Shown one piece after another: positions 3,446 through 64,000 of a stretch of 64,000 nt of DNA (within the stretch, counting starts at the first letter, position 1; every line of letters starts with the position of its first letter). The stretch is from Amycolatopsis endophytica (GTDB lineage Bacteria > Actinomycetota > Actinomycetes > Mycobacteriales > Pseudonocardiaceae). The position numbers and the translations under genes are program-made. Under the pieces are notes generated by a model. It did not search any database. It saw nothing but the letters and a program-made list of their open reading frames with translations, and was not told where the DNA came from. The stretch lies in NCBI RefSeq assembly GCF_013410405.1, contig NZ_JACCFK010000001.1:2666001-2730000 (forward strand), written 5' to 3'.

Positions 3446-4624
3446 CTAGGTCGCCAGGATCGTGACCACCATCGCCGCGGTATCGCGGCCCAGGAAACCG
3501 CCGCCGTTTTCGGCCAGCGCGACACGGGCGCCGGGGACCTGGCGCGGCCCGCACCGGCCGCGCAGCTGGTCGGTCAGCTCCACGAGCTGGCCGCACCCGG
3601 TGGCGCCGATGGGATGTCCCTTCGCGAGCAGCCCGCCGCTGGGGTTGACCACGCAGCTGCCGCCCAGCCGGGTCTGCCCGGACCGCAGCAGCGCCGCCCC
3701 CTGGCCCTCGCCGCAGAGCCCGAGATCCTCGTACACCATCAGCTCGGCCGGGGCCGCCGCGTCGTGGATCTCCAGCACGTCCAGGTCCTCCGGGCCCAGC
3801 CCGGCGGAGTTGAACGCCCGCGTCGCCGCGCGCTGCAGCGAGCCCTTTTCGCCGTCGCCGGACACCAGCGCGCAACCCCGCACCCGCACACCCGAAACGC
3901 CGAGCGCGCGGGCACGGGCGGCCGAGCACACGACGATCGCGGCGGCACCGTCACCGAGCGGCGAGCACATGAGCACGGTCAGCGGTTCGGACACCAGACG
4001 GCTCGCCAGCACCTCGCCCGCGGTGACGCGTTCCCGGTACTGCGCCTTCGGGTTCAGCGACGCGTGGTCGTGGCTCTTCACCGACACCTCGGCGAAGTCG
4101 GCCGCGGTCGCGCCGGTGCGCGCCATGTACGCGCGGGTCTGCGCGGCGTAGATGTCCATGAACAACGAGCCCCTGCCCGCGCACTCGGTGTCCGTCCACT
4201 GCCTCAGCTCACCCGGTTCCAGCTGGTCGACAGCCGTGGCGATGGCGGCGAACGACTTCGTCTTGTCGTGGTGGGTCAGCTTTTCCACGCCGACCGCGAG
4301 CGCGACGTCGACGGCGCCACCCGCCACCGCGGTCACGGCGAGGTGGAACGCGGTGGACGCCGACGCGCAGGCGTTCTCGACGTTGACGATCGGCGCGCCG
4401 AGCAGCCCGGTGTGCCGCAACGCGACCTGGCCGCGGATCATCTCCTGACCGGTCAGCATCCCGGCCGCGGCGTTGGCGAAGAACACCATGCCGACCTCGG
4501 CCGGGGTCAGTCCGGCGTCGGCCAGCGCGTCGGACACGGCCTCCTCGGACAGCGACCGGATCGTGCTGCCGCCGAACTTCCCGAACCGGGTCATCGCGGC
4601 GCCGGCGATCACGACATCGGTCAT
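3446..4624 (-). CDS. Thiolase / acetyl-CoA acetyltransferase, SCP-x type
   Basis: The 392-residue protein has the thiolase nucleophile Cys86 in NVENACASAS, the general-base histidine and second cysteine in GHPIGATGCGQ (336-346) and a C-terminal ENGGG motif. These residues perform thiolytic cleavage or condensation of acyl-CoA. The sequence type (TRFGKF start, HDAAAPAEL) is that of sterol-carrier-protein-X thiolases, used in side-chain or branched acyl breakdown. The ATG at 4622-4624 follows GAGGAGG closely. No other beta-oxidation gene adjoins it, so its pathway is open. Confidence 0.9.
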   Translation of the reverse strand: MTDVVIAGAAMTRFGKFGGSTIRSLSEEAVSDALADAGLTPAEVGMVFFANAAAGMLTGQEMIRGQVALRHTGLLGAPIVNVENACASASTAFHLAVTAVAGGAVDVALAVGVEKLTHHDKTKSFAAIATAVDQLEPGELRQWTDTECAGRGSLFMDIYAAQTRAYMARTGATAADFAEVSVKSHDHASLNPKAQYRERVTAGEVLASRLVSEPLTVLMCSPLGDGAAAIVVCSAARARALGVSGVRVRGCALVSGDGEKGSLQRAATRAFNSAGLGPEDLDVLEIHDAAAPAELMVYEDLGLCGEGQGAALLRSGQTRLGGSCVVNPSGGLLAKGHPIGATGCGQLVELTDQLRGRCGPRQVPGARVALAENGGGFLGRDTAAMVVTILAT

Positions 4625-4755
4625 GCTTGCCTCCTCTGCACGGACAGCGTCGCCCGTTCGCGGTCCCACGTCGAGAGGGTGTTGCCACGTGCGCGAAGAG
4701 CGGCGTACTGGTTGCGTCCAGTGGGAGCCTTGACCTGCCGTGGTTCAACGTTGGC

Positions 4756-48840: not shown

Positions 48841-48913
48841 GGGGCTGTAGCGCAGTTGGTAGCGCGTCTCGTTCGCATCGAGAAGGTCAGGGGTTCGATT
48901 CCCCTCAGCTCCA
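48841..48913 (+). tRNA. tRNA-Ala (anticodon CGC)
   Basis: The 73 bases fold fully: acceptor GGGGCTG with CAGCTCC (one G-U), D-arm GCGCAGTTGGTAGCGC, anticodon stem TCTCG/CGAGA with loop TTCGCAT (anticodon CGC, codon GCG), and T-arm AGGGGTTCGATTCCCCT. CCA is not encoded. The serine recombinase remnant ends at its 3' edge, so this was probably an integration site. Confidence 0.97.
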
Positions 48914-50026
48914 CCCTAGGGTTCTTAGTAGAACAAGTGCCTGAATGATGGCCATGAAGTAGGACCGTGACGCCTGACGGCGAGCAAGGACCACCCGCAC
49001 TGTGGGTGGTCCTTTTGTTTGTGCTACCCGCGCTCGTTGCTGCGGTCCGCAGATCTTGGATGGCGTGGAGTTCGCCGAAGGCTCATGAAGTTCACCGTCT
49101 GTGGTCTTGTCGTGCTCGATGTAGAGGGCTTGGAAGATCGCCTGGTTGAGGAGGCGGTGCTGGTGGTCGTTGCAGCGTCGGTACAGCTGGTCGGGCTGTT
49201 CGAGGAGGGCAAGGCGGGAGTTGACGAGCTGGGCGCTGTTGGTGAGGTCGGCGTTGGCTGTGTCGAGGTGCTCCTCCAGTCGGCGGCGCTCGTGGGCGAT
49301 GTCGCGTAGCTTCTCCTTGACCTTGGTCTGCGGCAGTGCGCTGTCGGCGGCGAGGTCGATCAAGTTCTCCTCCTTCGTGTCGAGTTCCTTGAGCTGGGCG
49401 GTGATTTGCCTGCGCAGCAGGCGCGCGGATTTTTCCTGCTCGCCGAGCACGGCATCGATCTGGTCGCGCATGTCAGCGATGAATGGCTGGCTGAAGCGAA
49501 TCGCCGCGTAGCGGCGTTCGACGGCGTCCTCGACGAGCGTGACGTTGACATAGGGCGCTTGGCACGCCTCCTTCTGCCGGCCACGGCAGAAGAAGTACAG
49601 GTACTCGGCGCCTTTGGAGTTGATGGTCCGTTGGATGATCATCCGCCGTTTGGTGCCGTCGCGTTGGCAGCGTCCACAGAAGAGCGATCCCTTGAGGTAG
49701 TGGTGGTGGACGCGACGGCGTTCTTGTGCTGTCGTGCGGGATTCGAGGATCTCCTGGACGGTGTCGAAGAGGTCCTCGTCGATGAGGGGTTCGCGCCGCC
49801 CTTGGATTTCTTCGCCGTCGTACTCGACGTATCCGAGGTAGTAGCGATCGCGCAGCATTTGCGAAATCTTGTTCTCGGAGACCTTCTTCCGGACTTGCCC
49901 GGTCGAGGACACGCGCGGGTAGATCACTGCGCGAGTGCCGGGGGCAAGATCGTCCATCGGCGGCTGGATAGGGAGGGTGACGTCCGGCTGCAGTTCATCG
50001 ATGAAGTCGGCATAAGCGCTGGTCAT
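48905..50026 (-). pseudogene. Large serine recombinase, catalytic domain deleted and 3' frameshifted
   Basis: The open frame starts at ATG 50026 behind AAGGAGG and reads normally into the catalytic start AVIYPRVSSTGQV, where the catalytic serine is present. It then jumps directly to SENKISQMLRDRYYLGYVEY of the recombinase DNA-binding domain. About 200 residues of the nuclease core and hinge, including all its arginines, are missing in frame. The zinc ribbon (SLFCGRCQRD; FFCRGRQKEAC) and coiled coil remain. Near 49080 one T appears lost: the other frame restores FGELHAIQDLRTAAT, so the last 70 codons are out of frame. It cannot recombine DNA. Confidence 0.85.
48986..49014 (+). terminator. Terminator downstream of tRNA-Ala
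   Basis: AAGGACCACCC (48986-48996) pairs perfectly with GGGTGGTCCTT (49004-49014), with a 7-base loop and a following TTGTTT. It lies 73 bases past the tRNA and inside the out-of-frame tail of the recombinase remnant. Confidence 0.75.
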
Positions 50027-50650
50027 GACGCCTCCTTCTGAGGGCGGCCTGGACGGCGTACCGAAGTGCGAGTTTCGCGTTCCCGAGCACGTCATTCGCC
50101 ATCCGGACCCTGGGGCCCAACCCGTGAACCCGCGCCGACGCGAACGGGCCACTCACCGCGAGCCTCGTCCCCAGGAACGCGAATGACGCGCTCCGGACCA
50201 CCCGATCGCACCCCGCGCCCCCGGACTTTGCCGGGGCACTGACGTACGACGTGGCGAAGGTGGCCTTCCCGAGCTTCCGGCCGTACACCCGCCGTCTTCG
50301 CGTTCAGGTGCTCCGCGGGCCGGTGCCCGCCCACATCGGCAACCAGCGCTGGGCGGGCCAACAGGGGTTCGACGACGTCGGCACGGCGCATCGCCGAGGC
50401 GCCGAGCACATCGAGCGGCCGGTGGCGTGATGCGAGTACCTCGGTGTCGGCAACCTCACCATCGGCTACGGGAGCAGGGGGAACTGGTCGACGCCGTCCG
50501 CGACCTGCTTCTGGAACAGGGCGCGGCCGGATGGTCCCTGGCCGAGATCGCCGAGTCGGTCACGCCCGACGCCATCGCGGCCATCTCTGCGCCAGGTTAA
50601 TAAATGAACGTTCCTTTACAAACTCTCTGGGGGTACGTACCCTCGGCGAC
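50027..50650. other. Degraded accessory stretch with inverted repeats and a gene tail
   Basis: No intact gene. GTCATTCGC (50091-50099) is inverted as GCGAATGAC (50179-50187) within wider GCGTTCC-type repeats. Bases 50451-50600 read as a coherent C-terminal coding remnant (ELVDAVRDLLLEQGAAGWSL, then AEIAESVTPDAIAA, stop 50598) without a start; the family is not clear. The promoter region of the TetR gene begins at about 50600. Confidence 0.5.
50602..50642. promoter_or_regulatory. Probable TetR operator region
   Basis: AAATGAACGTTCCTTT (50602-50617) is an imperfect palindrome centred on GAACGTTC, and GGGTACGTACCC (50631-50642) is a perfect 12-bp palindrome 9 bp before the TetR start. Either or both may be bound by the TetR protein that follows. 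Confidence 0.55.
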
Positions 50651-51232
50651 GTGCCACGACCGAGGACGACCAGCGACGAGGCGATTCTGCACGCCGCGGG
50701 GCGAACGATCGCCGAACACGGCCCCGCCGGCCTGACTCTGGCGGCCGTCGCGCGCGAGGCAGGGCTCTCGCCGCCGACGCTGGTCCAGCGCTTCGGCTCC
50801 AAGCGCGGCCTACTGCTGGCGGTGGCCGAACGGGCCACTCGGTACACCGGTGAGCTGTTCGACCGGGTCCGCGGCGAACACCCTTCGCCACTGACCGCAC
50901 TGCACGCGGCGCTCGGCGAGCTGGCCGACGTCGTCGAAGCACCTCACCACCTCGCCAACAGCCTCGCCTTCCTGCAGCTCGACCTGACCGACCCCGACTT
51001 CCGCGCACACGCTGCCGCCCAGGCGGACCGGATGCGCGCGGAGATCACGGCGTTGCTCACCGAGGCGGTCCGCGTGGGCGAGCTGACCGGCGACCCGGCG
51101 CGAATGGCCCGTTCGGTCCACATCGCCTACAACGGCGTCGTGATCGTGTGGGCGCTGCACGGCGACGGCCCGCTCGCCGACGCCCTCCGCGACGAAATCG
51201 ACCAGCTTCTGACCGATCGGAGTCCCACATGA
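50651..51232 (+). CDS. TetR-family transcriptional repressor
   Basis: The 193-residue protein starts at GTG 50651 and has the TetR HTH (AEHGPAGLTLAAVAREAGLS, then PTLVQRFGSKRGLL) and an all-helical ligand domain. Its TGA overlaps the start of the RibD-like gene by four bases, so it probably controls that gene and itself through the palindromes upstream. The ligand is unknown. Confidence 0.9.
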   Translation: MPRPRTTSDEAILHAAGRTIAEHGPAGLTLAAVAREAGLSPPTLVQRFGSKRGLLLAVAERATRYTGELFDRVRGEHPSPLTALHAALGELADVVEAPHHLANSLAFLQLDLTDPDFRAHAAAQADRMRAEITALLTEAVRVGELTGDPARMARSVHIAYNGVVIVWALHGDGPLADALRDEIDQLLTDRSPT

Positions 51233-51759
51233 CGTTCACAGCCGCGGCGTTCATCGCCACCAGCCTCGACGGCTTCATCGCCCGCCCGGACGGCGACCTC
51301 GAATGGCTCACCAGTCGCAATGAACAGGCAGGCGACACGGGGTACGAGAAGTTCACCGCGGGCATCGACACGGTCGTCCTCGGCAGGGCCAGCTACGAGG
51401 CGGTCCTCGGCTTCGGGACCGACGTCTGGCCCTACGCGGGCAAGCACGTCGCCGTTCTGAGCACCCGGTTGGCCACCGACGCCGACCCGCGCATTTCCGT
51501 CCACCGCGATCTCGACGAACTCGTCGCGCACCTGACCGATCGCGGCGCGAAACACGTGTACGCCGACGGCGGCCAGGTTGTCCAAAGCTTCCTGCGGGCG
51601 GGCTTGCTGACCGAGCTGACCATCACCACCGCGCCCGTGCTGCTGGGCGCCGGACTGCCGTTGTTCGGCGAGCTGTCCGCCGACATCGAACTCATCCACG
51701 AGTCGACGACCACCTACGACGCCGGTTACGTCCAAACCACCTACACCGTCCGCAAGTGA
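51229..51759 (+). CDS. RibD C-terminal/dihydrofolate reductase-like protein
   Basis: The 176-residue protein has AAFIATSLDGFIARPDGDLE at the start, VLGRASYEAVLGFG, and the end VLLGAGLPLFGELSADIEL. It is the third such reductase-like protein in this window and is translationally coupled to the TetR gene. In this arrangement the reductase is usually induced by the TetR ligand; the substrate is unknown. Confidence 0.87.
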   Translation: MTFTAAAFIATSLDGFIARPDGDLEWLTSRNEQAGDTGYEKFTAGIDTVVLGRASYEAVLGFGTDVWPYAGKHVAVLSTRLATDADPRISVHRDLDELVAHLTDRGAKHVYADGGQVVQSFLRAGLLTELTITTAPVLLGAGLPLFGELSADIELIHESTTTYDAGYVQTTYTVRK

Positions 51760-51843
51760 TCGGCGTCGGACAAATTTTTGTATGCGTATGGCTCGAAAAT
51801 TTTCCTAGCATCGCGTCCGGAATCGACAGTTCTGGAGGATCCG

Positions 51844-51882
51844 ATGATCCCGCAATGGTTCGACGACGCGAAGTTCGGCATG
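51844..51882 (+). pseudogene. First 13 codons of an alpha-L-fucosidase (GH29) gene
   Basis: MIPQWFDDAKFGM behind CTGGAGG exactly matches the conserved N-terminus of family GH29 fucosidases, which continue FxHWGxYSVP. Here the similarity ends abruptly at 51882 and the rest of the gene is gone. An AT-rich region resembling a promoter lies upstream (51765-51815). The break marks the edge of inserted or rearranged DNA. Confidence 0.7.
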
Positions 51883-51943
51883 ACGGCCTTGACGATGGTG
51901 GCTCCGTCCAAACCTGATCGAGTTGACATTGCTGGGGGCCGGG

Positions 51944-52403
51944 TCATCGGTGGTCACCTGCGTCGACGCGCGGACTCCCGTGGGTGTCTCGTGTGGGGAT
52001 GCCGCGTTCGCGCAGCTTGTTGAGCACGGTGGTGTGGTTGACGCCCAGGTGTTCGCCGACTCGTGCCAGGGACCAGCCGAGGTTGTACAGGTGGATGGCG
52101 TCGTTGACCTGGTCGTCCGAGAGGCCGCGGCGGCGCATCGGGACGCCGTGCCGATGGAGGATGGTGCTGACCGTTCGCCGTTCGATGTTGAACCGGTCAC
52201 CGAGTTGGTACACCGTCGCGCCGGACTGGTAGTCGGAGATCAGTTGCTCGACTTGATCGGGGCCCGAGTTGTCGGGCGTGGCCGGGGCGGTCGCGCTTGA
52301 TCGCCGGGGGCTCGGGTGTATCGAGGCTGGGAAGCTTCTCGCAGAGCTCTTCCAGTGCTCTGACCTGGTCTTCTATGTTCGAGTAAGGTCCCCCAACGTC
52401 CAC
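51944..52403 (-). pseudogene. Frameshifted HTH protein, serine-recombinase-associated
   Basis: From ATG 52403 the frame reads [20 protein letters not shown] and on to [10 protein letters not shown]. At about 52265 one extra base shifts it; in the next frame the sequence continues [40 protein letters not shown] and [20 protein letters not shown]. Two HTH units are thus split between frames. Proteins of this kind (about 140 residues) lie next to large serine recombinases in actinomycetes, and one such remnant is 2 kb away. Confidence 0.75.
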
Positions 52404-52529
52404 GCATCGGTGGCCCGTGCCCGCGGAGGGCGCGGGCCTTTTGCGTTTCGCGTGTCTCGTGGGGGCGCAGCCCCCACACCCCGCTCGGGGGCGAGCCCCC
52501 GAACCCCCGTCGTGGTTGCGTTGTTCGGG
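52404..52529. other. Short non-coding stretch
   Basis: GGGGGCGCAGCCCCC and GGGGGCGAGCCCCCGAACCCCC (near 52470-52510) are simple GC-rich self-complementary runs between two pseudogenes. They may end transcription leftward. Confidence 0.4.
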
Positions 52530-52962
52530 TCAGGTTCCTGAGCCTCCACGTGTTGGTGGGCTGTGCCGGTGGCCGCGGAAACGGTGTAGCAACTCCATCC
52601 GCACCCGCGCCGCCTCACCCTGCACTACCCGTGTCAGGAGCCGGTCCTTCTCGGAGACCAGCAGGCCGGCCACCCAAGCGGCGAGGCCATCGGAATCGTC
52701 TGCCGTCTCGGCCAGCGCTGGAGACGCCTGTGCCGCGATCGCGATCAGGTCGCCGTCGAGGCGCAGGAATTCCGCCAGTACCCGCTGAGCCGCAGTGAGC
52801 GCGCCCAGAGCAGGAGGCACCGGTGGTTCGACGTGGCCATCGAAGTCGGACTCACCGGGGTCGTCTTCGCCGGTGACGTCGAGCACGATGTACTCGGCCG
52901 TTCTCGATTTCGTCGGGGCCTACTGCGTCGGCGACCAGCTCTTGAAGTCGCCCCAGTGGCAT
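52530..52962 (-). pseudogene. Frameshifted hypothetical protein of a mobile region
   Basis: ATG 52962 reads PLGRLQELVADAVGPDEIEN. Near 52898 one extra base shifts it; the next frame continues EYIVLDVTGEDDPGESDFDG, LRLDGDLIAIAAQASPALAE and KDRLLTRVVQGEAARVRMEL to the stop at 52530. The restored product is about 143 residues, acidic then helical. It lies 4 bases after the preceding gene. The family recurs near actinomycete recombinases; function is unknown. Confidence 0.6.
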
Positions 52963-52966
52963 TCGC

Positions 52967-53299
52967 TCACTGCCCATCCACTCGGCCGGCACCGGTGAAG
53001 GGCTCTGCCCGCAACGTCGAGTCGTCGCCCAGGTGGAAGAACAAGTGGCCCTCGATCTTCTCGTCTTCGACGAGAACCGCCCAGCCGCGTCCGCCGACCT
53101 GATCGCCCTCGTCGACACCCTCCCGGGTGAACTCGACCGCGGGCCGTCCGTCCCGTTCGGCCGGGCGGCAGTCCAGCCGGCCACTGACGGCGATGAAAGC
53201 TGGTTCGACCGAGTCGATGGCATCGCGGTCCCAGTTGCTCATCTCCACGATCCGCCACCGTCCGGCCATCCGCGCCATGGACTTCGGAGACTTGGCCAT
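52967..53299 (-). CDS. Small hypothetical protein of the WRI(V/T)EM type
   Basis: The 110-residue protein from ATG 53299 contains MAGRWRIVEMSNWDRDAIDS, DEGDQVGGRGWAVLVEDEKI and GHLFFHLGDDSTLRAEPF, the pattern of small soluble proteins common in bacterial gene cassettes and mobile DNA. Compared with relatives a few residues seem to be missing after EPAFIAVSG. It is divergent from the LLM oxidoreductase gene. Function is unknown. Confidence 0.6.
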   Translation of the reverse strand: MAKSPKSMARMAGRWRIVEMSNWDRDAIDSVEPAFIAVSGRLDCRPAERDGRPAVEFTREGVDEGDQVGGRGWAVLVEDEKIEGHLFFHLGDDSTLRAEPFTGAGRVDGQ

Positions 53300-53343
53300 G
53301 GGGTCAGAGTAGTCAACCGAAATGCACGAAAGGCACATCGATC

Positions 53344-54195
53344 ATGCCTGACACGTCCAGTGCCACCGACACCGCCGCGTCCGAGGGCCGGCCGCACCGC
53401 GTGCGCGTCGGCGTCCAGCTGTGGCCCGGTGGCACGCCGGACTACGCGACCTGGCGCCGAGCGGTGCCGCACGCCGAGGAACTGGGCGCCGACGTCGTCT
53501 TCGGCTACGACCACCTCCACAAACCCTTCATCGACATGGTCGACGGTGTCCCGCGACTGCGCGACGAGCAGCCGGATGTCAACAACTTCGAAGGGTGGAC
53601 CGCTCTGGCGTCCTGGGGTGAGATCACCAGCAGGCCGGAAATCGGGCTCCTGGTGTCGGCCGTGGCCTTCCGCAACCCGGACCTGCTCGCCGACATGGCA
53701 CGCACGGTCGACCACATCAGTGGGGGCCGGCTCATCCTCGGCCCTGGCGCCGGCTGGTACCAGAAGGACTTCGAGGTCTACCAGTACGACTTCGGCACGA
53801 TGAAATCGCGCTTCGACCATTTCGAGGAAAGCCTGGAGCGGATCAAGAACCGGCTGCGGCAGCTGACTCCGCCCCCGGTGCGTGACATTCCCATCCTCAT
53901 CGGCGGTGGCGTCGAGCGCCGTACCCTGCCGATCGTGGCGCGCTACGCCGACATCTGGCACAGCTTCGAAACCATCGAGGAGTTCCGCCGCAAGAACGAC
54001 CTGCTCAAGGGGCTCGACGAAGAGGCCGGACGCGACGAGGCGGCCATCGAACGCGGAATCGACTGGACCGACGAGGTCACCGCTGACGCCTTCGTCGCCG
54101 AGGGGGCCACCCTGTTCACCACGGAGATCCACCCCGACGAGAACGGGTACGACTTCTCCGAACTGGAGAAGATGCTCGCGTGGCGGGGCCGCTGA
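53344..54195 (+). CDS. LLM-class (luciferase-like) F420- or flavin-dependent oxidoreductase
   Basis: The 283-residue TIM-barrel enzyme has the start VRVGVQLWPGGTPDYATWRR, EELGADVVFGYDH, a central SGGRLILGPGAGWYQKDFEV and IPILIGGGVERRTLPIVARY, all typical of LLM enzymes using F420 or FMN. The C-terminal insertions differ from luciferase. The substrate is unknown. It stands at the right border of the decayed island. A downstream HxlR gene is broken. Confidence 0.88.
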   Translation: MPDTSSATDTAASEGRPHRVRVGVQLWPGGTPDYATWRRAVPHAEELGADVVFGYDHLHKPFIDMVDGVPRLRDEQPDVNNFEGWTALASWGEITSRPEIGLLVSAVAFRNPDLLADMARTVDHISGGRLILGPGAGWYQKDFEVYQYDFGTMKSRFDHFEESLERIKNRLRQLTPPPVRDIPILIGGGVERRTLPIVARYADIWHSFETIEEFRRKNDLLKGLDEEAGRDEAAIERGIDWTDEVTADAFVAEGATLFTTEIHPDENGYDFSELEKMLAWRGR

Positions 54196-54300
54196 CCGCT
54201 TCCGGCGGCCGTCCGTTCATCGTCCAGTGCTTCACTGGTGGGGGCAAGCACGGCCGGATGCCCACCGGTTCCGTGGTGGCTGATGGAAAGTGATGCCCGG

Positions 54301-54650
54301 ATGACTGAGCGCGGATTCTACTGTGGACTGGACGCCGCACTGTCCGTCGTCGGGGGCAGGTGGAAGTTCCTGGTGCTGTGGCAGCTCGCCGTGCACGGTC
54401 CGCAGCGGTTCGGCCGGCTGCGCCGTCTCGTCGACGGGGTCACCGAGAAAATGCTGATCAGCGCGCTCAAAGACCTCGAGGCAGCCACGTAGTCGTCCGC
54501 AAGGACTTCCAGGAGCTTCCCCCGCACGTCGAATACTCCCTGACACCGTACGGCTCGGGGCTCACGGAAGCGCTGCGCCCGCTGGGCGAATGGGGATACG
54601 CCCGCAGGGACCGGCTCGGGGCGCCGGGGAGCCAACCCGTCGGGGCCTGA
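54301..54650 (+). pseudogene. HxlR-family regulator with a one-base deletion
   Basis: The first frame gives TERGFYCGLDAALSVVGGRW, KFLVLWQLAVHGPQRFGRLR and EKMLISALKDLEA, the HxlR winged helix, but stops at TAG 54490. In the next frame it resumes as HVVVRKDFQELPPHVEYSLT and EALRPLGEWGYARRDRL to 54650. Loss of one base near 54485 explains this. It would have been a homodimeric redox or electrophile-sensing regulator. A sequencing error is possible but less likely among so many broken neighbours. Confidence 0.8.
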
Positions 54651-54652
54651 CG

Positions 54653-54689
54653 GGCCTCGTCGCCATCGGCCGGCGATGGCGACGAGGCC
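54653..54689. terminator. Strong bidirectional terminator
   Basis: GGCCTCGTCGCCATCG (54653-54668) and CGATGGCGACGAGGCC (54674-54689) form a perfect 16-bp stem with loop GCCGG. It separates the HxlR remnant from the convergent glutamate dehydrogenase gene (stop 54698). Confidence 0.85.
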
Positions 54690-54697
54690 GGGGTGTC

Positions 54698-56071
<1,374 letters not shown>

Positions 56072-56209
56072 CTACGCCGGATCCGGCGTAGCGGAACCGG
56101 CCGGATCCGCGGGACGGTCGCTGTGGTGGCGTGTCTCGTCGAGCCCGCGAACGCGCGTGATTGCCATCACCTGTCCCGGAAGTTCTCGGGGCGGCGCGAA
56201 GGCACGCTG

Positions 56210-56944
56210 TCAGACCTGGCCGATCCCGCCGTCGACGGGCAGGTCGATTCCGCTCACGAAGCTGGAGTCCGCGGACGCGAGGAACAGCGCCGCGGTGGCG
56301 ATTTCGCGTTCGGCGCCGAGACGGCCGAGGGGCACCAGCGTGGCGATCTGATCGCGAAATCCGGGTGGGAGGTCCGCGAACGCCGGAGTGTCGATCGCGG
56401 CGGGGCTGAGGACGTTGACCCGGATTCCCCGCTCCTTCAGGTCGGTGGTCCAGGTGCGGGCGAACGACCGCAGCGCGGCCTTGCTCGCCGCGTAGATCGT
56501 GGTTCCCGGATCGCCCTTCTCGGCGGCACCCGAGCCGACCAGCACGATCGAGGCGCCATCGGACAGCAGCGGCAGGAGTTTCTGCACGGTGAAGAACGTG
56601 CCGCGCACGTTCACGCCGAACACGGCGTCGAACGACTCCTCGGTCACGTCGCCGATGTGCTCGTTCCAGTTCCAGACCCCGGCGCTCGCGACGAGGACGT
56701 CGACCCGGCCCAGTTGGGCCGCCACGACGTCGGCGAGGCGGACCACGTCGGCGATCTCACCGACGTCACCGACCACGCCGGTCACGTCGTGGCCGATCGC
56801 GGCCGCCGCGGCGTCCAGCCGGTCCTGGCGCCGACCGGTGATGACCACGTGCGCGCCCTCCGCGACGAACAGCTTCGCCGTCGCCAGTGCCAGTCCCGAG
56901 GTCGCGCCGGTGATCACCGCGACCTTCCCGTCAAGTTTCGCCAT
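56210..56944 (-). CDS. Short-chain dehydrogenase/reductase
   Basis: The 244-residue SDR has the cofactor motif AVITGATSGLALATA (10-24), ASAGVW, catalytic Ser in IVLVGSGAAEKG, YAASK (Tyr and Lys near 152-156) and IRVNVLSPAAIDTPAF. It lacks the usual third glycine spacing (SGLALA rather than SGIGxA) but keeps the fold. GGAGGAG precedes ATG 56944. It is divergent from a TetR gene with shared operators, so that protein most likely represses it. The substrate is unknown. Confidence 0.9.
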   Translation of the reverse strand: MAKLDGKVAVITGATSGLALATAKLFVAEGAHVVITGRRQDRLDAAAAAIGHDVTGVVGDVGEIADVVRLADVVAAQLGRVDVLVASAGVWNWNEHIGDVTEESFDAVFGVNVRGTFFTVQKLLPLLSDGASIVLVGSGAAEKGDPGTTIYAASKAALRSFARTWTTDLKERGIRVNVLSPAAIDTPAFADLPPGFRDQIATLVPLGRLGAEREIATAALFLASADSSFVSGIDLPVDGGIGQV

Positions 56945-56959
56945 GCCGGTCTCCTCCAT

Positions 56960-57020
56960 AAAATGAGTGTGTTCTCATTTTCGACGCGAGAGCAAGCTAG
57001 CAAAGATGAGACAATGCTCA
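56960..57020. promoter_or_regulatory. Two TGAG-N6-CTCA operators between SDR and TetR genes
   Basis: AAAATGAG (56960-56967) and CTCATTTT (56974-56981) are a perfect inverted repeat with a 6-base gap. A second TGAG-N6-CTCA lies at 57007-57020. Both sit in the 113-bp divergent promoter region, the expected binding site of the TetR product. Confidence 0.75.
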
Positions 57021-57057
57021 AAGTTGAGGCATATCACACTTTTGCTACGGTGACCTC

Positions 57058-57726
57058 ATGTCCTCCCGTGACGCTCCGCCGTCCGCGCGCAGGGATGCGC
57101 ACCGCAACCGTCAGCGGCTTCTCGAATGCGCCCGTCGCGCGTTCGCCGAACGAGGTGCGGAAGCCGCGCTCGACGGCATCGCCAGGGAGGCGGGCTTGGT
57201 GGTCGGCACCCTCTACCGGCACTTCCCCACGCGCCTGGAACTCCTGTGGACCGTGCTCGAACCGAAGCTGCGCCGCGTGATCGACGAGATGACGGCCTCG
57301 CTCGGCCAGGAGGACCCGTGGGAGGCGTTTCGCGGTCTGCTGGAAGTGCTGTGTACGGCGCAGGCCGGAGATCGGGCGTTCGCCGACTTCCTGGCGCGCC
57401 GGTTCCCCGGCGACAACCGCACCGAGGTCGCGCACAACGAGATCTGCGGGCTCGCGCACCAGGTTCTGCTGCGCGCGCAGGAGGCGGGCGCGGTACGTCC
57501 CGACGTCACGGGCGCCGACCTGCTCGTGTTGCTGTGGGCGAGTGGCTGTGTCTCCGAGACCACGCAGCACGTCGCACCGTCGATGTGGCGCAGGCACCTG
57601 CACCTGGCGATGGACGGGTTGCGGGCGTCGAACCGGTCCGACCTGCGGGAACCCGCGTGGGATCTGGAGTTGCTGAGCCGGGCGCTCCCGGGTCGGCAGG
57701 CGGTCTCTCGCTCAGCGTCCGGTTGA
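57058..57726 (+). CDS. TetR-family repressor
   Basis: The 222-residue protein has the HTH RAFAERGAEAALDGIAREAG and VGTLYRHFPTRLELLW, then a helical ligand domain with a TetR_C-type end (DVTGADLLVLLWASGCVSET). It is divergent from the SDR gene and faces two matching palindromes, so it probably regulates that gene in response to the SDR substrate. The stop lies inside the end of the next, decayed TetR gene. Confidence 0.9.
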   Translation: MSSRDAPPSARRDAHRNRQRLLECARRAFAERGAEAALDGIAREAGLVVGTLYRHFPTRLELLWTVLEPKLRRVIDEMTASLGQEDPWEAFRGLLEVLCTAQAGDRAFADFLARRFPGDNRTEVAHNEICGLAHQVLLRAQEAGAVRPDVTGADLLVLLWASGCVSETTQHVAPSMWRRHLHLAMDGLRASNRSDLREPAWDLELLSRALPGRQAVSRSASG

Positions 57727-58200
57727 GTCGTCCAGTCCCGCGAAGACTCCGGCGACGCCCTGGATCGCGATGTCGACGGCCGCGTCGAGTCGGGCGGTGA
57801 AGGCGCCCGGCGGGGCGGGGGCGTCGCGCATCCAGCGCCAGAGCACTCCCGGGTAGACGTCGTAGAGGATCTCAGCGGCGAGCTCGGACCTGGCGGTGGC
57901 CCCGGTCGGTCCGTGGCCGGCCAGCCCTCCCCGCAGCTCCTGGGCCATCGGCGTGCGGTTCAGGACCGGTCCGCCGGCGCGCAGGTAGCCGAAGAGCATC
58001 TCCCGGGTTTCGGCCGGCCGGCGCCTCGGTGATGGTGGCGAGCTCGTGGAAGTAGGCGCGAAGGCGGTCGAGCACACCGCCGCCCTGCGCCATCGTCGCC
58101 TTGGCGGCGTCCGACGCCTGCGCACGTCGGCGAGAGCCCATTCGACCGCGACGTCGCTCTTCGTCGCGAAGTGGTTGAACGCGGTGCGCGCCCGTCGGTG
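57712..58200 (-). pseudogene. Decayed TetR-family regulator
   Basis: Pieces of one protein lie in two frames. TAFNHFATKSDVAVEWALAD (end of the HTH) is in one frame, ASDAAKATMAQGGGVLDRLR and AYFHELATITEAP in the next, and ETREMLFGYLRAGGPVLNRT to FAGLDDSTGR back in the first. At least two frameshifts (near 58120 and 58020) and a missing HTH N-terminus make it dead. Its operator sites upstream still look intact. Confidence 0.75.
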
Positions 58201-58235
58201 GTGCCCGTCGTGACCACTCCAGCCGCCTGGACATT

Positions 58236-58283
58236 TTGCACACCAGTGCAACAGCGACGAGGACACTATCCGCACTTGAGTGC
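58236..58283. promoter_or_regulatory. Two GCAC-N4-GTGC operators
   Basis: TTGCAC-ACCA-GTGCAA (58236-58251) is a perfect palindrome. GCAC-TTGA-GTGC (58272-58283) repeats its core, 32 bp further on. Both lie between the divergent TetR and reductase pseudogenes and outlast the genes they served. Confidence 0.65.
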
Positions 58284-58312
58284 AAAGACCGCTCGGAGAA
58301 CAGGATGACGAC

Positions 58313-58629
58313 GTGAGCCGCTTCGACGAGACCAACACGAAGGTCATCGCCGAGTTCCGGCGGAGCGGTGGCAGGGCGGGCGGTGCAGTCGACGGCGTGC
58401 CGCTGTTGTTGCTGCACCACGTCGGCGCGAAATCGGGTGCACGGCGAACCACTCCGCTCGTGCCGTTGGTGGAGGCCGGCCGGATCTACGTCTGGTCGCC
58501 CGGCCGGTCACCGGCGCCGAGCGTGACCGCCTCTACGCGAAGCTGGCCGCCACGCTGCCCCAGTTCGACTACCAGCACAGAACCAGCCGGGTCATCCCGG
58601 TGCTCGAACTCCGGCGAGTGGACGCCTGA
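58313..58629 (+). pseudogene. F420-dependent nitroreductase (DDN) family remnant
   Basis: GTG 58313 starts SRFDETNTKVIAEFRRSGGR and LLLLHHVGAKSGARRTTPLV, the conserved DDN front. After about residue 62 some 40 residues are missing and the frame changes. The remaining end, PVTGAERDRLYAKLAATLPQ and TSRVIPVLELRRVDA, continues in the next frame to TGA 58627-58629. The F420-binding middle is lost, so it is inactive. Confidence 0.8.
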
Positions 58630-58633
58630 CCGG

Positions 58634-58673
58634 CGACGGGCCCGTGCTCCTGCGGGGAAACCCGGGCCCGTCG
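58634..58673 (-). terminator. Terminator hairpin of the hydrolase gene
   Basis: CGACGGGCCCG (58634-58644) pairs perfectly with CGGGCCCGTCG (58663-58673); the loop is 18 bases. It directly follows the stop at 58676. Confidence 0.65.
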
Positions 58674-58675
58674 GA

Positions 58676-59575
58676 CTATTCCGCGGCCGCGGCGGTGACG
58701 CGCTGGATGGCCTGGACGGCGACGTCGGGCTGGTCGACGTAGATGTAGTGGCCGCTGGCCGACGCGGTGGAGGGCTCGCTGCGGCTGGACAGATCGAGCC
58801 ACTTGTCCTGGCCCTCGGCCCACGCCCGTTCCAGCGCGTCCCCGTACTCGGGGATCTCGGCGAGGTAGTGCTGCCCGTGCTGGATCACTTCCACCGGGAT
58901 GTCCCCGGCGTAGCCCACCTCACCGTCCTCGATGGTCAGCTGCTCCGGGTTCTGCCCGCCGTACACCGCGAGGCTCTGCGCCCGCAGCTCGGCCGCCGGA
59001 CCGGTGGCCGATTCGGGGATCGCGGCGGTGGTGTCGGCGAGGATGGTCGAGGGGGTGGCGTCCATCAGCACCAGTCCCGCGACCCGGTCCTGGTGGCCGG
59101 GGGCGTAGCGGGCGGCGATCAGCCCGCCCAGGGAGTGCCCGGCCAGCACGACCGGTTCGTCACCGGCGACGCGGTCGAGCACCCCGGTGAGGATGGCGCC
59201 GGAACTGTCGAAGGTCTGCACGCCCCCGGGCTGGTCGCTCGCGCCTTCGCCGAGCCGGTCGTAGGAACAGGCCCGGCCCTTCTCGCTCAGCGTCTGCTGC
59301 AGGCCCGCCATCTTGTCCAGGCCGTCCCCGAGCCCGGCCATCAGGACCACGACCGGCGTGCCGTCGACCGGAGTACCCGAACAGGACACGTTCACCGACC
59401 GGCCGGCGACGGTGATCTTCGTCGTCCCGGAGATCGGCTCTCCAGCGGTGTCACCGGCCGCGCTCACCGGCGCCGGGGCATCGGCCTCCGAAGCCTCGTC
59501 GCACGCTGTCAGCGCCGACCCGGTCAGTGCGCAGAACAGTGCGGCGACAGCGGTTGACTTGGCGTTGCGGAACAT
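58676..59575 (-). CDS. Lipoprotein alpha/beta hydrolase
   Basis: The 299-residue protein has a signal peptide ending in the lipobox LTGSALTAC (Cys25), so it is probably anchored outside the membrane. The fold elements are VVVLMAGLGDGLDK, the nucleophile Ser in VLAGHSLGGLIAAR (near 147), the acid in LVLMDATPS and a C-terminal His in ASGHYIYVDQPD. Such enzymes hydrolyse esters or amides; the substrate is unknown. It stands alone with its own terminator. Confidence 0.88.
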   Translation of the reverse strand: MFRNAKSTAVAALFCALTGSALTACDEASEADAPAPVSAAGDTAGEPISGTTKITVAGRSVNVSCSGTPVDGTPVVVLMAGLGDGLDKMAGLQQTLSEKGRACSYDRLGEGASDQPGGVQTFDSSGAILTGVLDRVAGDEPVVLAGHSLGGLIAARYAPGHQDRVAGLVLMDATPSTILADTTAAIPESATGPAAELRAQSLAVYGGQNPEQLTIEDGEVGYAGDIPVEVIQHGQHYLAEIPEYGDALERAWAEGQDKWLDLSSRSEPSTASASGHYIYVDQPDVAVQAIQRVTAAAAE

Positions 59576-59733
59576 CAGTACTCCACGAGTGGGTCGGTGA
59601 ACGTGCGTTGGTTCCCAGCGGCAGCCTGAGCGCTGCGGTTGCCCGAAACGCTAGGGAAAACCACGGCCCGGGTCGTCACCGCGCGGTGGACACTTCGCTG
59701 TAGCTCGCACGGGGGACGCCACCTGCCGGGTCG

Positions 59734-60768
59734 CTAGGCGTCGTTCAGCCGGAACAGGTGCTCCGCGTTGCGGTGGGTGATCTTCTCCCGTTCCCCGGCC
59801 GTGAGGTCGAGGTCGTCGAGGAACTCGCGCGTGCCGTCGAGGTGGAGGAAGGGGTAGTCGACCGACCAGATCAGCCGGTCGAGTCCCAGCACCGTGCGGA
59901 TGAAGTCGAACTGGGGCCGGTGGAACATCCCGCTCGGGGTGACCCACACGTTCGAGCGGTAGGTCTCGGTGATCGTCCGCGACAGCCCGGTGTCGCCCGG
60001 GGACAGGACGTCGTCGAGGCGGCTGAGGTAGAAGGGGACCATCTCGCCCCAGTGCCCACTGATGACCTGCAGGTGGGGGAGGCGTTCGAAGACGCCCGCG
60101 AGGATGAGCCGCAGGACGTGGATCCCCGCCTCGTGGTGCCAGCCCCATCCGCCCAGCGAGAGTTCCGCGCTCACCTTGTCGGCGAAGCCCGCGTAGTACG
60201 CCTGCTGGACCTGCGGAACCGGGTAGAACGGGTGCACGTAGAGCGGCACCCGCAGCGCGGCGATGCGGTCCAGGACGGGCTGGTACACCGGATCGTCGAG
60301 GAAGCCGGTGCCGGGGCGTCCCAGGATCAGGACGCCGCGCAGGCCGAGGTCGGTCACGGCGCGGTCGAGCTCGTCGACCGCGGCGGTGGGCTGTTGCCAC
60401 GGCAGGGCCGCCAGCCCCTGGAGCCGGCCGGGGCGCGCGGCGACGGCCTTCGAGAGTCTGTCGTTGGCCGCTCGGCACAGGCCGATCGCCTGGTCGCCGG
60501 GAACCAGCTGGATCGGGCTGGTCCAGGAGACGATCTGCATGTCGATGCCGTGCTCGTCCATCCGGTCGATGCGTTCCTGCCCCAGGTCGGTGCCGAGGCG
60601 GATCGCTTCCGGCATGTCGACGGCGGTGCGACGGCCTGGCCCCGGCCGCACGGGGGAGGAGCTGGAGCTCTGCATGCGCAGGTACGGCGCTTCACGGGCG
60701 AGGACGGGGCCGGCCGCGTCGGCGATCGGCTGGTCGATCGCGTGCTCTTCGATGCAGATCAGTGTCAT
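59734..60768 (-). CDS. Metal-dependent amidohydrolase, ACMSD/gamma-resorcylate decarboxylase type
   Basis: The 344-residue TIM-barrel protein starts LICIEEHAID (replacing the usual HxH metal pair with EEH), has PLYVHPFYPVP, a central ISGHWGEMVPF and the catalytic Asp in LIWSVDYPF. These match the ACMSD-like decarboxylase/hydrolase group that acts on aromatic acids. The TetR gene 140 bp away in the opposite direction probably regulates it. The substrate is unknown. Confidence 0.88.
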   Translation of the reverse strand: MTLICIEEHAIDQPIADAAGPVLAREAPYLRMQSSSSSPVRPGPGRRTAVDMPEAIRLGTDLGQERIDRMDEHGIDMQIVSWTSPIQLVPGDQAIGLCRAANDRLSKAVAARPGRLQGLAALPWQQPTAAVDELDRAVTDLGLRGVLILGRPGTGFLDDPVYQPVLDRIAALRVPLYVHPFYPVPQVQQAYYAGFADKVSAELSLGGWGWHHEAGIHVLRLILAGVFERLPHLQVISGHWGEMVPFYLSRLDDVLSPGDTGLSRTITETYRSNVWVTPSGMFHRPQFDFIRTVLGLDRLIWSVDYPFLHLDGTREFLDDLDLTAGEREKITHRNAEHLFRLNDA

Positions 60769-60867
60769 CGGTCGTCCCTGGGTGGAGTGGTGGCGCGTTC
60801 GCCCGCGATCTGCCCGGTGGGGCCGCTAATCGCAATCATGGATGATGACTCCCGTCAGCACTGGAAC

Positions 60868-60903
60868 CGAGGTAAACTCGACTGTACCGTATACTTGAGG
60901 TGG
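60868..60903. promoter_or_regulatory. Imperfect palindrome before the TetR gene
   Basis: ACTCGACTGTAC and GTATACTTGAGG (near 60876-60900) are reverse complements at about 8 of 12 positions around one base. The site is a candidate operator for the TetR protein, shared with the divergent amidohydrolase gene. Confidence 0.4.
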
Positions 60904-60908
60904 ATGTC

Positions 60909-61529
60909 ATGGCCCGACGCGGGGAAGCGCTGCGCGAGCACATCCTCGACACGGCGAAGCTCGCGTTCCTGGAGGACGGCTTCGAGCGGACCTCCATGGA
61001 CGCGCTCGCGGCACGCGCGGAAACGTCGAAGCGTTCCCTGTACGCGCACTTCCCGACCAAGGACGCGCTGTTCCTCGCCGTCGTCGAGCGCATCCGTGTC
61101 CTGTTCGGAGCGCGGATGGGGGCGCCCGCCGAGTACTCCGCGCATCCACCGGAAGCGGTCGTGCGGTACTGCGGGCGCTTCGTCCAGCTGTTGCGGTGGT
61201 CCTCGGTCGCCCGGATGCTCCGTCTCGGCATCGCCGAGGCGGACCGGCTGCCAGACCTGGCGGCGGGCCTCCATGACGCGGTTTTCGGGGCCACGGCCGA
61301 CGCTCTCGCGTCACACCTGGTGGCGAGCTCGGGTCTCCCGGCCGACCAGGCGGAGGTCGCGGCGAACGAACTGATCGGCCTCGCCATCCACCCGACGCTC
61401 CCCCGCCTGCTGTTCGGCATCGAACCCCTCGTGGACGAGATGCCGGAGGAGAACCGGCTGGAGACCGACGTCGACCTCGACCGGATCCGGCGGCTCCTCC
61501 ACACCGTCATGCCGCCGACGGCAGCGTGA
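60909..61529 (+). CDS. TetR-family repressor
   Basis: The 206-residue protein has the HTH EDGFERTSMDALAARAETSK and RSLYAHFPTKDALFLAVVER, then a helical domain of the TetR_C_7 kind. ATG 60909 follows TTGAGG at 8 bases; GTG 60900 is possible. It is divergent from the amidohydrolase gene, its likely target. It ends 16 bp before the Wadjet remnant. Confidence 0.9.
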   Translation: MARRGEALREHILDTAKLAFLEDGFERTSMDALAARAETSKRSLYAHFPTKDALFLAVVERIRVLFGARMGAPAEYSAHPPEAVVRYCGRFVQLLRWSSVARMLRLGIAEADRLPDLAAGLHDAVFGATADALASHLVASSGLPADQAEVAANELIGLAIHPTLPRLLFGIEPLVDEMPEENRLETDVDLDRIRRLLHTVMPPTAA

Positions 61530-61545
61530 CGCGGGCCGGGGAAAC

Positions 61546-62397
61546 ATGGAGTTCGACGAACTCGACTTCCTGCGCCGCAACGATCCGGCGTGGCGGTTGA
61601 CCCGGGTCGATTCTCTTCGGGCACGGTCGTTCGTCGGCACCGAATCCCGGCTGAACAATCTTCGAACCGAACGCACCCAGGCGACGGCGCGGTTGCTGTC
61701 GGAACAGCTGCGCACGTTCCTCGACGACCAGGTGTGGCTGGAAAAACCGCCGCGTGATGGACATCCTGTCCCCCATCGAGTCGTCCGCCCCGCCCCGGCG
61801 CTCACCTTCGAATTCGACGGCACGGCGCCGTGCTCGGGGTGCGGCGGGACGTGCGGACCGGAGGAGCGCGTCGAGCACAGCAGACCGCCGTCCGATTTCG
61901 CGGGCCGGTACCGCTTCCGCCAGAAGCCCGCCTGCGTCCGGTTTTGCCGCCTGTCCGGCGGTGAACTCGCCGTCCGGGTGGCGGAACCGGCCGTCACGCC
62001 GCCGGCGGCGCGCACCGTGTTCGTCGTCGAGAACGAGAACACCCATGTGGCTTCCCCGCCCGTCGAGGACGCTGTGATCTTCGGCGAGGCTATGCGGCGT
62101 CCCGGCCGCGGCCGGCCGGCCGTGACATCGACACGCACGGGGTTCGCGATCATGAACAGCGTGCACCGCACCTCGAGGGGCCGCTCCATGCTCATGGACC
62201 GCGCGACGCTGCTCGCCCACGAAGGTCAATGGGTGAACGAGCCCAACCCGACGAACGAGCACCTCGAAGCGCTCCTCCCGGACGAGGCCGACCTCTACAC
62301 AGACCTGGTGGAGGGTGCCCTGGGCAGCTCCGTCCGGCTGGAGCAGGAACGCATCTCGTACGCCGCCATCCGGGAAGCCACCCGCCGGTACCACTGA
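61546..62397 (+). pseudogene. Fused remnant of a Wadjet defence operon (jetA start to jetD end)
   Basis: The single open frame is a mosaic. Its start (EFDELDFLRRNDPAWRL, SFVGTESRLNNLRTE, TQATARLLSEQLRTFLDDQV) has JetA/DUF3375 segments in the right order, each separated by missing stretches. At 61745 an extra A in a run shifts the frame; the other frame continues NRRVMDILSPIESSA. The second half (RTVFVVENENTHVASPPVED, SMLMDRATLLAHEGQWVNEP, DEADLYTDLVEGALGSSVRL) is the JetD/DUF2220 Toprim end, with a further shift around GDIDTHG near 62125. JetB and the SMC ATPase JetC are gone. The order A to D and the missing middle match the jetABCD order. Confidence 0.82.
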
Positions 62398-62477
62398 GCC
62401 GGCCGGCCTCCTCCGTGTCAGCGGCCGTGTCAGGGTCGTGGCGGTCCCCTGTCAGCGCGGGCGCCGATGGTGGTCGC

Positions 62478-63419
62478 ATGAACACTCCAGCGATCGCGGT
62501 CTCCGGACTGCGCAAGACGTTCGGGGACAAGGTCGTGCTCGACGGCATCGATTTCGAGGTCCGCGCGGGCTCGGTCTTCTCCCTGCTCGGCCCCAACGGG
62601 GCGGGCAAGACGACAACGGTCAACGTGCTGACCACGTTGACGAAAGCCGACGGCGGGACGGTCCGCGTCGCCGGGCACGACATCGCCACCGAGGCCACGG
62701 CGGTGCGCGCGGCGATCGGGGTCACCGGCCAGTTCGCTGCCGTGGACGAGCTGCTGACGGGTCAGGAGAACCTGCAGCTGATGGCCGACCTCAACCGCGC
62801 CGTCACGGGCAGGGGCGATCGGATGGTCGCCGATCTGCTGGAACGCTTCGACCTGGTGGACTCGGCGCGCAAGCCCGCGTCGACGTACTCCGGTGGCATG
62901 CGGCGGAAGCTCGACCTGGCGATGACGCTCGTCGGCCACCCGCGGATCATCTTTCTCGACGAGCCGACGACCGGGCTGGACCCCCGCAGTCGCCGCACCA
63001 TGTGGACGATCATCCGTGAGCTGGTGGCCGACGGCGTCACCATCTTCCTCACCACCCAGTACCTCGACGAGGCCGACCAGCTCGCCGACCGGATCGCGGT
63101 GCTGGACAAGGGCAGGCTCGTCGCCCAGGGGACCCCGGACGACCTGAAACGGCAGGTCCCCGGGACGCACGTCCGGCTCCGCTTCACCACCGTGGCCGAA
63201 CTCGACGCGGCCGCGCTGGCCTTCGCCGGCGCCACCCGCGACGACGAGGCACTGGCCCTGCGGGTGCCCAGCGACGGCGGATCGCAGTCGCTGCGTGCCT
63301 TGCTGGACAGGCTCGACGAGCACGCGATCAGCGCCGAGGAGTTCTCCGTCCACACCCCCGACCTCGATGACGTTTTCCTCGCCCTGACGGGCCACGACAC
63401 GGAGGCAGTCGCGCCATGA
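62478..63419 (+). CDS. drrA: ABC transporter ATP-binding protein, DrrA type
   Basis: The 313-residue ATPase has Walker A GPNGAGKTTT (36-45), the Q-loop VTGQFAAVDE, signature YSGGMRRKLDLAM (near 137), Walker B IIFLDEPTTGLD (near 158) and a DrrA-type C-terminal domain (TPDLDDVFLALTGHD). Family members export daunorubicin-like drugs or lipids with a separate membrane subunit. Its TGA overlaps the permease ATG. It is the first intact gene after the Wadjet remnant. Confidence 0.93.
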   Translation: MNTPAIAVSGLRKTFGDKVVLDGIDFEVRAGSVFSLLGPNGAGKTTTVNVLTTLTKADGGTVRVAGHDIATEATAVRAAIGVTGQFAAVDELLTGQENLQLMADLNRAVTGRGDRMVADLLERFDLVDSARKPASTYSGGMRRKLDLAMTLVGHPRIIFLDEPTTGLDPRSRRTMWTIIRELVADGVTIFLTTQYLDEADQLADRIAVLDKGRLVAQGTPDDLKRQVPGTHVRLRFTTVAELDAAALAFAGATRDDEALALRVPSDGGSQSLRALLDRLDEHAISAEEFSVHTPDLDDVFLALTGHDTEAVAP

Positions 63420-64000
63420 GCACCCAGTCCCACTCCCTGGTGATGTTGCGCCGCAACTTCAAGCACCTCGCCCGCAACCCGACCTCGGTGTTCAACGCGG
63501 TCCTGATGCCGATCGTGGTCATGCTGATGTTCGTGTACATGCTCGGCGACGCGTTCAGCGTCGGCGTCGACTACGTCGACTACGCGACACCGGGCCTCAT
63601 GCTGATGGCCGTCTGCTACGGGCTCGGCGGCGTGGCAACGTCGGTGAACTCCGATATGACGAAGGGGATCATCAACCGGTTCAAGGTCATGGACGTCTCC
63701 CGCGGCGCGGTCCTGACCGGGCACGCCGTCGCCAGTCTGCTGACCAACCTGATCGCCATCGTCGCGCTCGTGGGGGTGGCGTTGCTGCTGGGATTCAGCC
63801 CCGCGGCGGGTTTCCTCGACTGGCTCGGCGTGGCCGGGATGGTCGTGCTGCTCGGCCTCGCGGCCGGCTGGTTCACCATCGCGCTGGGCCTGGCGGCGAA
63901 GACCCCCGAAACCGCGGGCATGGCCGCCGTGCCGCTGGTGCTGCTGCCGTTCTTCAGCAGCGCGATCGTGCCGGCGGAGAAGATGGGGCCGGGTCTCCGG
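63416..64000 (+). CDS. drrB: ABC-2 type permease, DrrB type (5' part)
   Basis: The gene runs out of the window; 195 residues are visible. They contain the DrrB-like amphipathic start (SLVMLRRNFKHLARNPTSVF), a first helix (VLMPIVVMLMFVYMLG), a loop with DYATPGLMLMAVCYG and further helices, with the exporter-family segment RFKVMDVSRGAVLTGHAVA. It pairs with DrrA, whose stop overlaps its start (ATGA), to form an efflux pump for a hydrophobic compound. Confidence 0.9.
   Translation, partial: MSTQSHSLVMLRRNFKHLARNPTSVFNAVLMPIVVMLMFVYMLGDAFSVGVDYVDYATPGLMLMAVCYGLGGVATSVNSDMTKGIINRFKVMDVSRGAVLTGHAVASLLTNLIAIVALVGVALLLGFSPAAGFLDWLGVAGMVVLLGLAAGWFTIALGLAAKTPETAGMAAVPLVLLPFFSSAIVPAEKMGPGLR

Follow-up and report, generated by a model that had tools for sequence, protein, structure and literature searches.

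Type I Wadjet, JetABCD, is an MksBEFG-like SMC anti-plasmid system, and a working copy needs all four genes at one locus. The cases given in the PADLOC paper (PMC9252829) include a Wadjet locus whose jetC is frameshifted, and inactivated defence remnants are presented there as worth study. Where they treat disrupted bacterial genes, Kuo and Ochman 2010 (PMC2916853) have these removed by deletion, and argue that the removal is selected and fast. No collapsed Wadjet stubs were found in the titles and abstract openings of the open-licence literature on Wadjet pseudogenes or remnants, Wadjet in Amycolatopsis, and the decay of defence systems.

Here we describe a locus of Amycolatopsis endophytica in a window of 64,000 nucleotides, by which we mean the whole stretch of DNA that was analysed; it has 69% G+C and lies in contig 1 (5.2 Mb) of the 7.2-Mb genome. 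The locus, hereafter the fossil, is very probably a dead type I Wadjet operon that serial internal deletions have shrunk into a jetA-jetD stub. It resembles type I Wadjet in its gene order, from jetA to jetD, and in matching the PADLOC models JetA1 and JetD1. Unlike that system, it has no jetB or jetC, has lost the greater part of jetA and roughly half of jetD, and appears not to be functional. Compared with the Wadjet pseudogene as presented in the PADLOC paper (PMC9252829), it has decayed further, into a two-ended stub that lies in a single frame and is taken by gene callers for one protein. In comparison with the treatment of disrupted genes by Kuo and Ochman 2010 (PMC2916853), several stages in the collapse of one operon coexist here in one family.

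Remains of the operon

Blastn comparisons were made with four intact type I operons, among which that of genome G390 is the best proxy. The fossil aligns as four collinear pieces in operon order, three of jetA and then the end of jetD (Table 1). About 275 bp have been lost between jetA pieces 1 and 2 and about 480 bp between pieces 2 and 3, and about 5 kb are gone ahead of the jetD remnant, comprising the end of jetA, jetB, jetC and the start of jetD. The ~30 nucleotides at 61831-61860 have as their sole match a weak one, 27 nucleotides of jetD in one operon (E=0.008). In all, ~0.85 kb of a 6.64-kb operon remains (13%), and at the DNA level the fossil matches eight intact operons of type I Wadjet.

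Table 1. Features of the window, with the corresponding positions on the G390 stretch for the pieces of the operon
Feature	Position	Strand	Position on G390 stretch	Remarks
tRNA-Ala(CGC)	48841..48915	+		left border of variable region
Serine recombinase remnant	48905..50152	-		beside tRNA gene; frame open; Pfam Recombinase and Zn_ribbon_recom only
Broken HTH gene Y	51947..52427	-		two frames in tblastn; elsewhere adjoins X or Wadjet remnants
Decayed copy of gene X with its upstream region	52572..53317	-		link to jet fossil presumed
TetR-family regulator	60900..61529	+		intact; ends 16 nt ahead of fossil; Pfam TetR_N; 77% protein identity in congener G015
Open frame encoding P0001	61546..62397	+		283 codons; ATG start; covers all jet pieces
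jetA piece 1	61546..61599	+	126-179	first 18 codons, own start codon; 88.9-92.6% DNA, three of four intact operons (G390 92.6%); no blastn match listed in the fourth, G180
jetA piece 2	61598..61665	+	454-523	80-86% DNA, four intact operons (G390 84.3%)
jetA piece 3	61667..61830	+	1003-1184	includes out-of-frame patch; 76-82% DNA (G390 81.5%)
jetD 3' remnant	61861..62397	+	6178-6762	roughly the latter half of jetD, with its own stop codon; 71-75% DNA (G390 74.6%); PADLOC JetD; Pfam JetD_C
drrA-type ABC ATPase gene	62478..63419	+		right neighbour; TIGR01188 323 bits, cut-off 312
ABC-2 permease gene (drrB-like)	63416..64000	+		continues past window end; Pfam ABC2_membrane

Tblastn queries for jetB and jetC matched nothing at E<=1e-3 in the surrounding 19 kb, and the same queries recover both genes in two intact control loci. 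At the DNA level these genes have short matches only, the strongest being 28 nucleotides on the jetB side (E=0.002) that lie beneath the much better match of jetA piece 1 and are taken to be a probable chance match. An earlier reading, made by a model from the letters without database searches (the sequence-only reading), had claimed that both genes are absent, and tblastn and the DNA alignment bear this out. Its proposal of a jetABCD operon brought down by serial deletions to a single open frame is likewise supported by the alignments.

The predicted protein of this frame, P0001, matches the PADLOC models for JetD (PDLC00530, E=1.7e-33) and JetA (PDLC00457, E=1.9e-10); its first 68 codons by themselves match JetA at E=4.8e-13. 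The placing of JetA at the start and JetD at the end of one 283-codon frame was therefore right, to the exact coordinates, by PADLOC and by DNA alignment. In Pfam, JetD_C (PF09983) scores 71.9 bits against a cut-off of 22, and DUF3375 (PF11855) scores 15.0 bits, under its cut-off of 28.6, so that the JetA part is supported instead by PADLOC, DNA alignment and tblastn. NCBIfam profiles give no match to P0001 at E<=0.001. The homology of the fossil to Wadjet is far above chance level. As was also foreseen, annotation has rendered the locus as a single hypothetical protein: P0001 is catalogued in the protein database as one predicted protein, with JetD_C the sole domain marked.

Several observations bear on function. 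The SMC ATPase JetC is missing from the fossil locus by both blastn and tblastn, pieces of jetA and jetD being all that remains of the four genes, and DUF3375 has no match at E<=0.001 in the genome, which is 96.6% complete. The JetD glutamate (VENE) is retained, and the JetD DxD (DID) stretch is out of frame, so the motif is not intact; we take glutamate and DxD to form the Toprim motif, and both are invariant in 10 relatives. Among alignment columns invariant in intact relatives, changes at codon positions 1 and 2 number 18/400 in the fossil and 55/3090 in leave-one-out controls, which are phylogenetically non-independent (Fisher p=0.0012), and those at position 3 number 7/72 and 45/583 (p=0.49). 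Constraint thus appears relaxed relative to intact copies, with modest numbers and non-independent controls. With no SMC motor, no complete JetA and DxD out of frame, the fused frame would encode no working Wadjet protein. The fossil is significantly homologous to more than one of the jet genes, with operon order and orientation kept, and we class it as a pseudogene.

The course of events was probably as follows. A jetA-jetB-jetC-jetD operon in a variable region by a tRNA-Ala gene would have lost function, after which three or more large deletions and a number of small ones would have cut it to 13% of its length. The start of jetA and the end of jetD would have outlived the middle and would now abut, because deletions would be tolerated inside the dead operon only.

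The TetR-drrAB site and the wider region

The TetR gene, the fossil and drrAB all point the same way, separated by 16 and 80 nucleotides. On the left, homology to congener G015 takes in an amidohydrolase gene and the TetR gene, breaking off at 61516, within the end of the latter, and homology to drrAB loci on the right begins at 62404-62450 in the eight loci compared; the fossil therefore fills a break in synteny. The sequence-only reading had looked to an intact Wadjet locus in a relative, placed as here between TetR and drrAB. None was found: among the 30 best DrrA loci, only that of the window has this TetR gene within 1.5 kb upstream, and in G015, the only congener whose TetR is close (77%), other genes come after it.

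An intact Wadjet relative is present in the same wider region, beside tRNA-Ala(CGC). At this locus (L048) an identical tRNA-Ala gene lies at L048:2058-2131, the left flank is similar (66-71%), and jetA is 2.8 kb rightward. Bare 3' ends resembling tRNA-Ala (30-33 nucleotides, 93-97%), where no tRNA gene is called, occur near two intact loci (L132:12925-12957 and L050:2050-2079) and one remnant (L057:5463-5492), a comparison made without a background control. The tRNA-Ala gene and the bare 3' ends that lie next to Wadjet loci resemble att sites of integrative elements, and this suggests that type I Wadjet here may travel with elements that integrate at tRNA-Ala. To the right of the fossil, no att repeat was found, there being no stretch with at least 17/24 matches in window positions 50000-64000 or in L058. 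Pfam found no resolvase catalytic domain in the serine recombinase remnant, and the other loci compared have no gene that matches it.

Gene X adjoins jetA divergently in three of nine intact loci (G194, G216, G281) and in 3/11 remnants (G146, G168, G172). In the window, X and jetA have the same divergent orientation at a distance of 8.2 kb, and the genes between them lie at separate places in congeners; the two may well have been adjacent formerly. The product of X is 388 amino acids long, with gene copies at L051:12906-14066 and at L049:1091-2254 and 3549-4727. It has no match in Pfam, NCBIfam or PADLOC, and X is possibly an accessory gene or a marker of the island.

Positions 53318-61545 hold a patchwork of accessory genes, including those for TetR, a hydrolase and an amidohydrolase, whose matches are scattered in congeners. 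From their translations, other genes there presumably encode an LLM-type oxidoreductase, a glutamate dehydrogenase and an SDR protein. Some match at E<=1e-30 was found in 16/19 genomes (this one included), and no contiguous copy is listed outside this genome. That the 8.2-kb block is one mobile unit is unsupported, since its genes match separate places in congeners.

The same genome carries a type III Wadjet near 5.16 Mb (L250:3430-11277), in which PADLOC recognises JetA3, JetC3 and JetD3 and does not recognise JetB3.

Remnants in other genomes and the survival of operon ends

An initial scan of genome contigs with P0001 found no relative. When 390 genomes of the family were searched with JetD and JetA, and 397 genomes of the order with JetD (some genomes being in both sets), 11 remnant loci, that of the window included, were found against nine close relatives that are full-length in both proteins (G390, G216, G180, G194, G256, G067, G147, G246 and G281; JetD 61-85% and JetA 73-100% to the queries). 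Like the window, G146 keeps the start of jetA and the end of jetD, with two stops, and G206 keeps ~200 bp in which the start of jetA adjoins the end of jetD, not in one frame. jetD alone remains in G168, G586 and G015, and jetA alone in G133, G172, G352 (the weakest) and a second locus of G147; G344 has the end of jetC and the start of jetD. All remnants except G586 (10/11) are inside the family. The count leaves out G233 (an incomplete match), G148 and G135 (full-length, JetA 44-54%), the broken near-complete loci G562 and G539, and more distant JetA and JetD matches. The three two-ended stubs (window, G146, G206) have different break points, and are therefore taken as independent. The recurrent collapse of the Wadjet operon is what is new here; the fossil itself is clear but fairly ordinary.

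The JetD remnant of congener G015 is at another site (L011:1343-1984), and another contig of that genome has a different, full-length DUF3375 gene.

All seven remnants with jetA pieces start within 20 nucleotides of the jetA start position, and five of the seven with jetD pieces end within 30 nucleotides of the stop, the exceptions being G168 and G344. By tblastn, jetB is kept in 0/11 remnant loci and part of jetC in 1/11 (G344), in a set found with JetA and JetD only, so that stubs of jetB or jetC alone would be missed and JetA matches could fall anywhere in JetA. When random deletions confined to the 6.64-kb operon were simulated, both ends survived to 15% of the original length in 72-89% of runs and to 3% in 36-52%. 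Since such a deletion model keeps the ends, an end-to-end fusion is what late decay would be expected to produce if the neighbours have to stay intact, and this edge effect may be the cause of the pattern. Eight of the 11 remnants retain one end or neither, which counts against a strong form of the effect.

The open frame and rival explanations

The single open frame stands as the sequence-only reading had it, with the correction that it is mostly the native JetA and JetD frame and not an arbitrary one: of the aligned bases, 85% keep to it. Two main patches, at 61743-61788 and 62091-62144, are out of frame, and the frameshifts claimed near 61745 and 62125 fall in or beside them; there are two shorter patches besides. 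The native frame resumes after every disturbance and is found in 8/10 blocks of at least 20 nucleotides after the first block (binomial p=0.003; block table hand-copied, one overlapping edge trimmed and two 3-nucleotide blocks left out), a figure that is biased because the fossil was chosen for being open. Pooled over five fossils, large junctions are in frame in 7/9 cases (p=0.008), or 6/9 by a strict count (p=0.04), in a hand-counted, post hoc tally; minus the window copy, 4/6 are in frame (p=0.10). All three large junctions of G146 are in frame, yet it has two stops, and frames are mixed in G133, the second G147 locus, G206 and G586. Frame preservation exceeds the expectation of plain decay, and this is a weak anomaly.

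The frame's openness is unremarkable and partly due to chance in DNA of this G+C content, where there are 64 ORFs of at least 283 amino acids in the window, at most 29 of them retained when overlaps of more than 30% are disallowed. With the blocks framed at random, 6.6% of cases run open as far as the native stop, frame 1 stays open in 38/2000 dinucleotide shuffles, and the antisense frame across the fossil is open too.

Because plain decay would be expected to scramble the frame more, we keep an explanation in which selection holds it open for translation within a TetR-fossil-drrAB transcription unit. Ribosomes that cross a stretch protect downstream genes from Rho-type polarity, so that frame-restoring changes would be favoured; the sequence would no longer matter, and openness would. 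The closely spaced, co-directional genes, the return to the native frame after each disturbance and the small fractions of random framings and shuffles that stay open all favour this, and if true it would account for frame-restoring changes in a non-functional protein. However, 6.6% is not rare for a fossil selected as open, and the abundance of long spurious frames in the window, with the antisense frame among the open ones, also weighs against it; we consider it unlikely. A new functional JetA-JetD fusion protein would run from the JetA start to the JetD stop in just such a single, largely native frame, but both of its parts are fragmentary, its DxD is out of frame, and the similar stubs of G146 and G206 have stops or a change of frame. 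An intact homologue of the same fused length, which the sequence-only reading had named as evidence against itself, was not found among the best 120 of 1738 homologues, nor was any second fusion of this kind. Besides P0001, 118/119 of these have both JetD domains and one (P0096, 215 amino acids) has JetD_C only; the short homologues P0096, P0081 and P0006 are JetD along their entire length. A functional fusion is therefore rejected as very improbable. Equally hard to credit is an intact operon garbled by an assembly or sequencing error; nothing direct speaks for this, although single-base shifts could stem from homopolymer errors. The fossil is internal to a 5.2-Mb contig, losses on the kilobase scale together with spread point changes are unlike read errors, and analogous fossils exist elsewhere, four of them in single-contig assemblies (G146, G168, G172, G206).

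Read as the stub of a dead type I Wadjet operon that may have arrived with an integrative element, the fossil is a defence operon near the end of its life, and related genomes seem to have undergone the collapse independently. Tallies of defence systems overlook such stubs when they require all four genes, and gene callers render them as single proteins with a JetD domain. The edge effect serves as a warning that an apparent jetA-jetD fusion is not necessarily a new protein. From the range of copies, intact, half-lost or almost erased, one could gauge the turnover of this anti-plasmid system.
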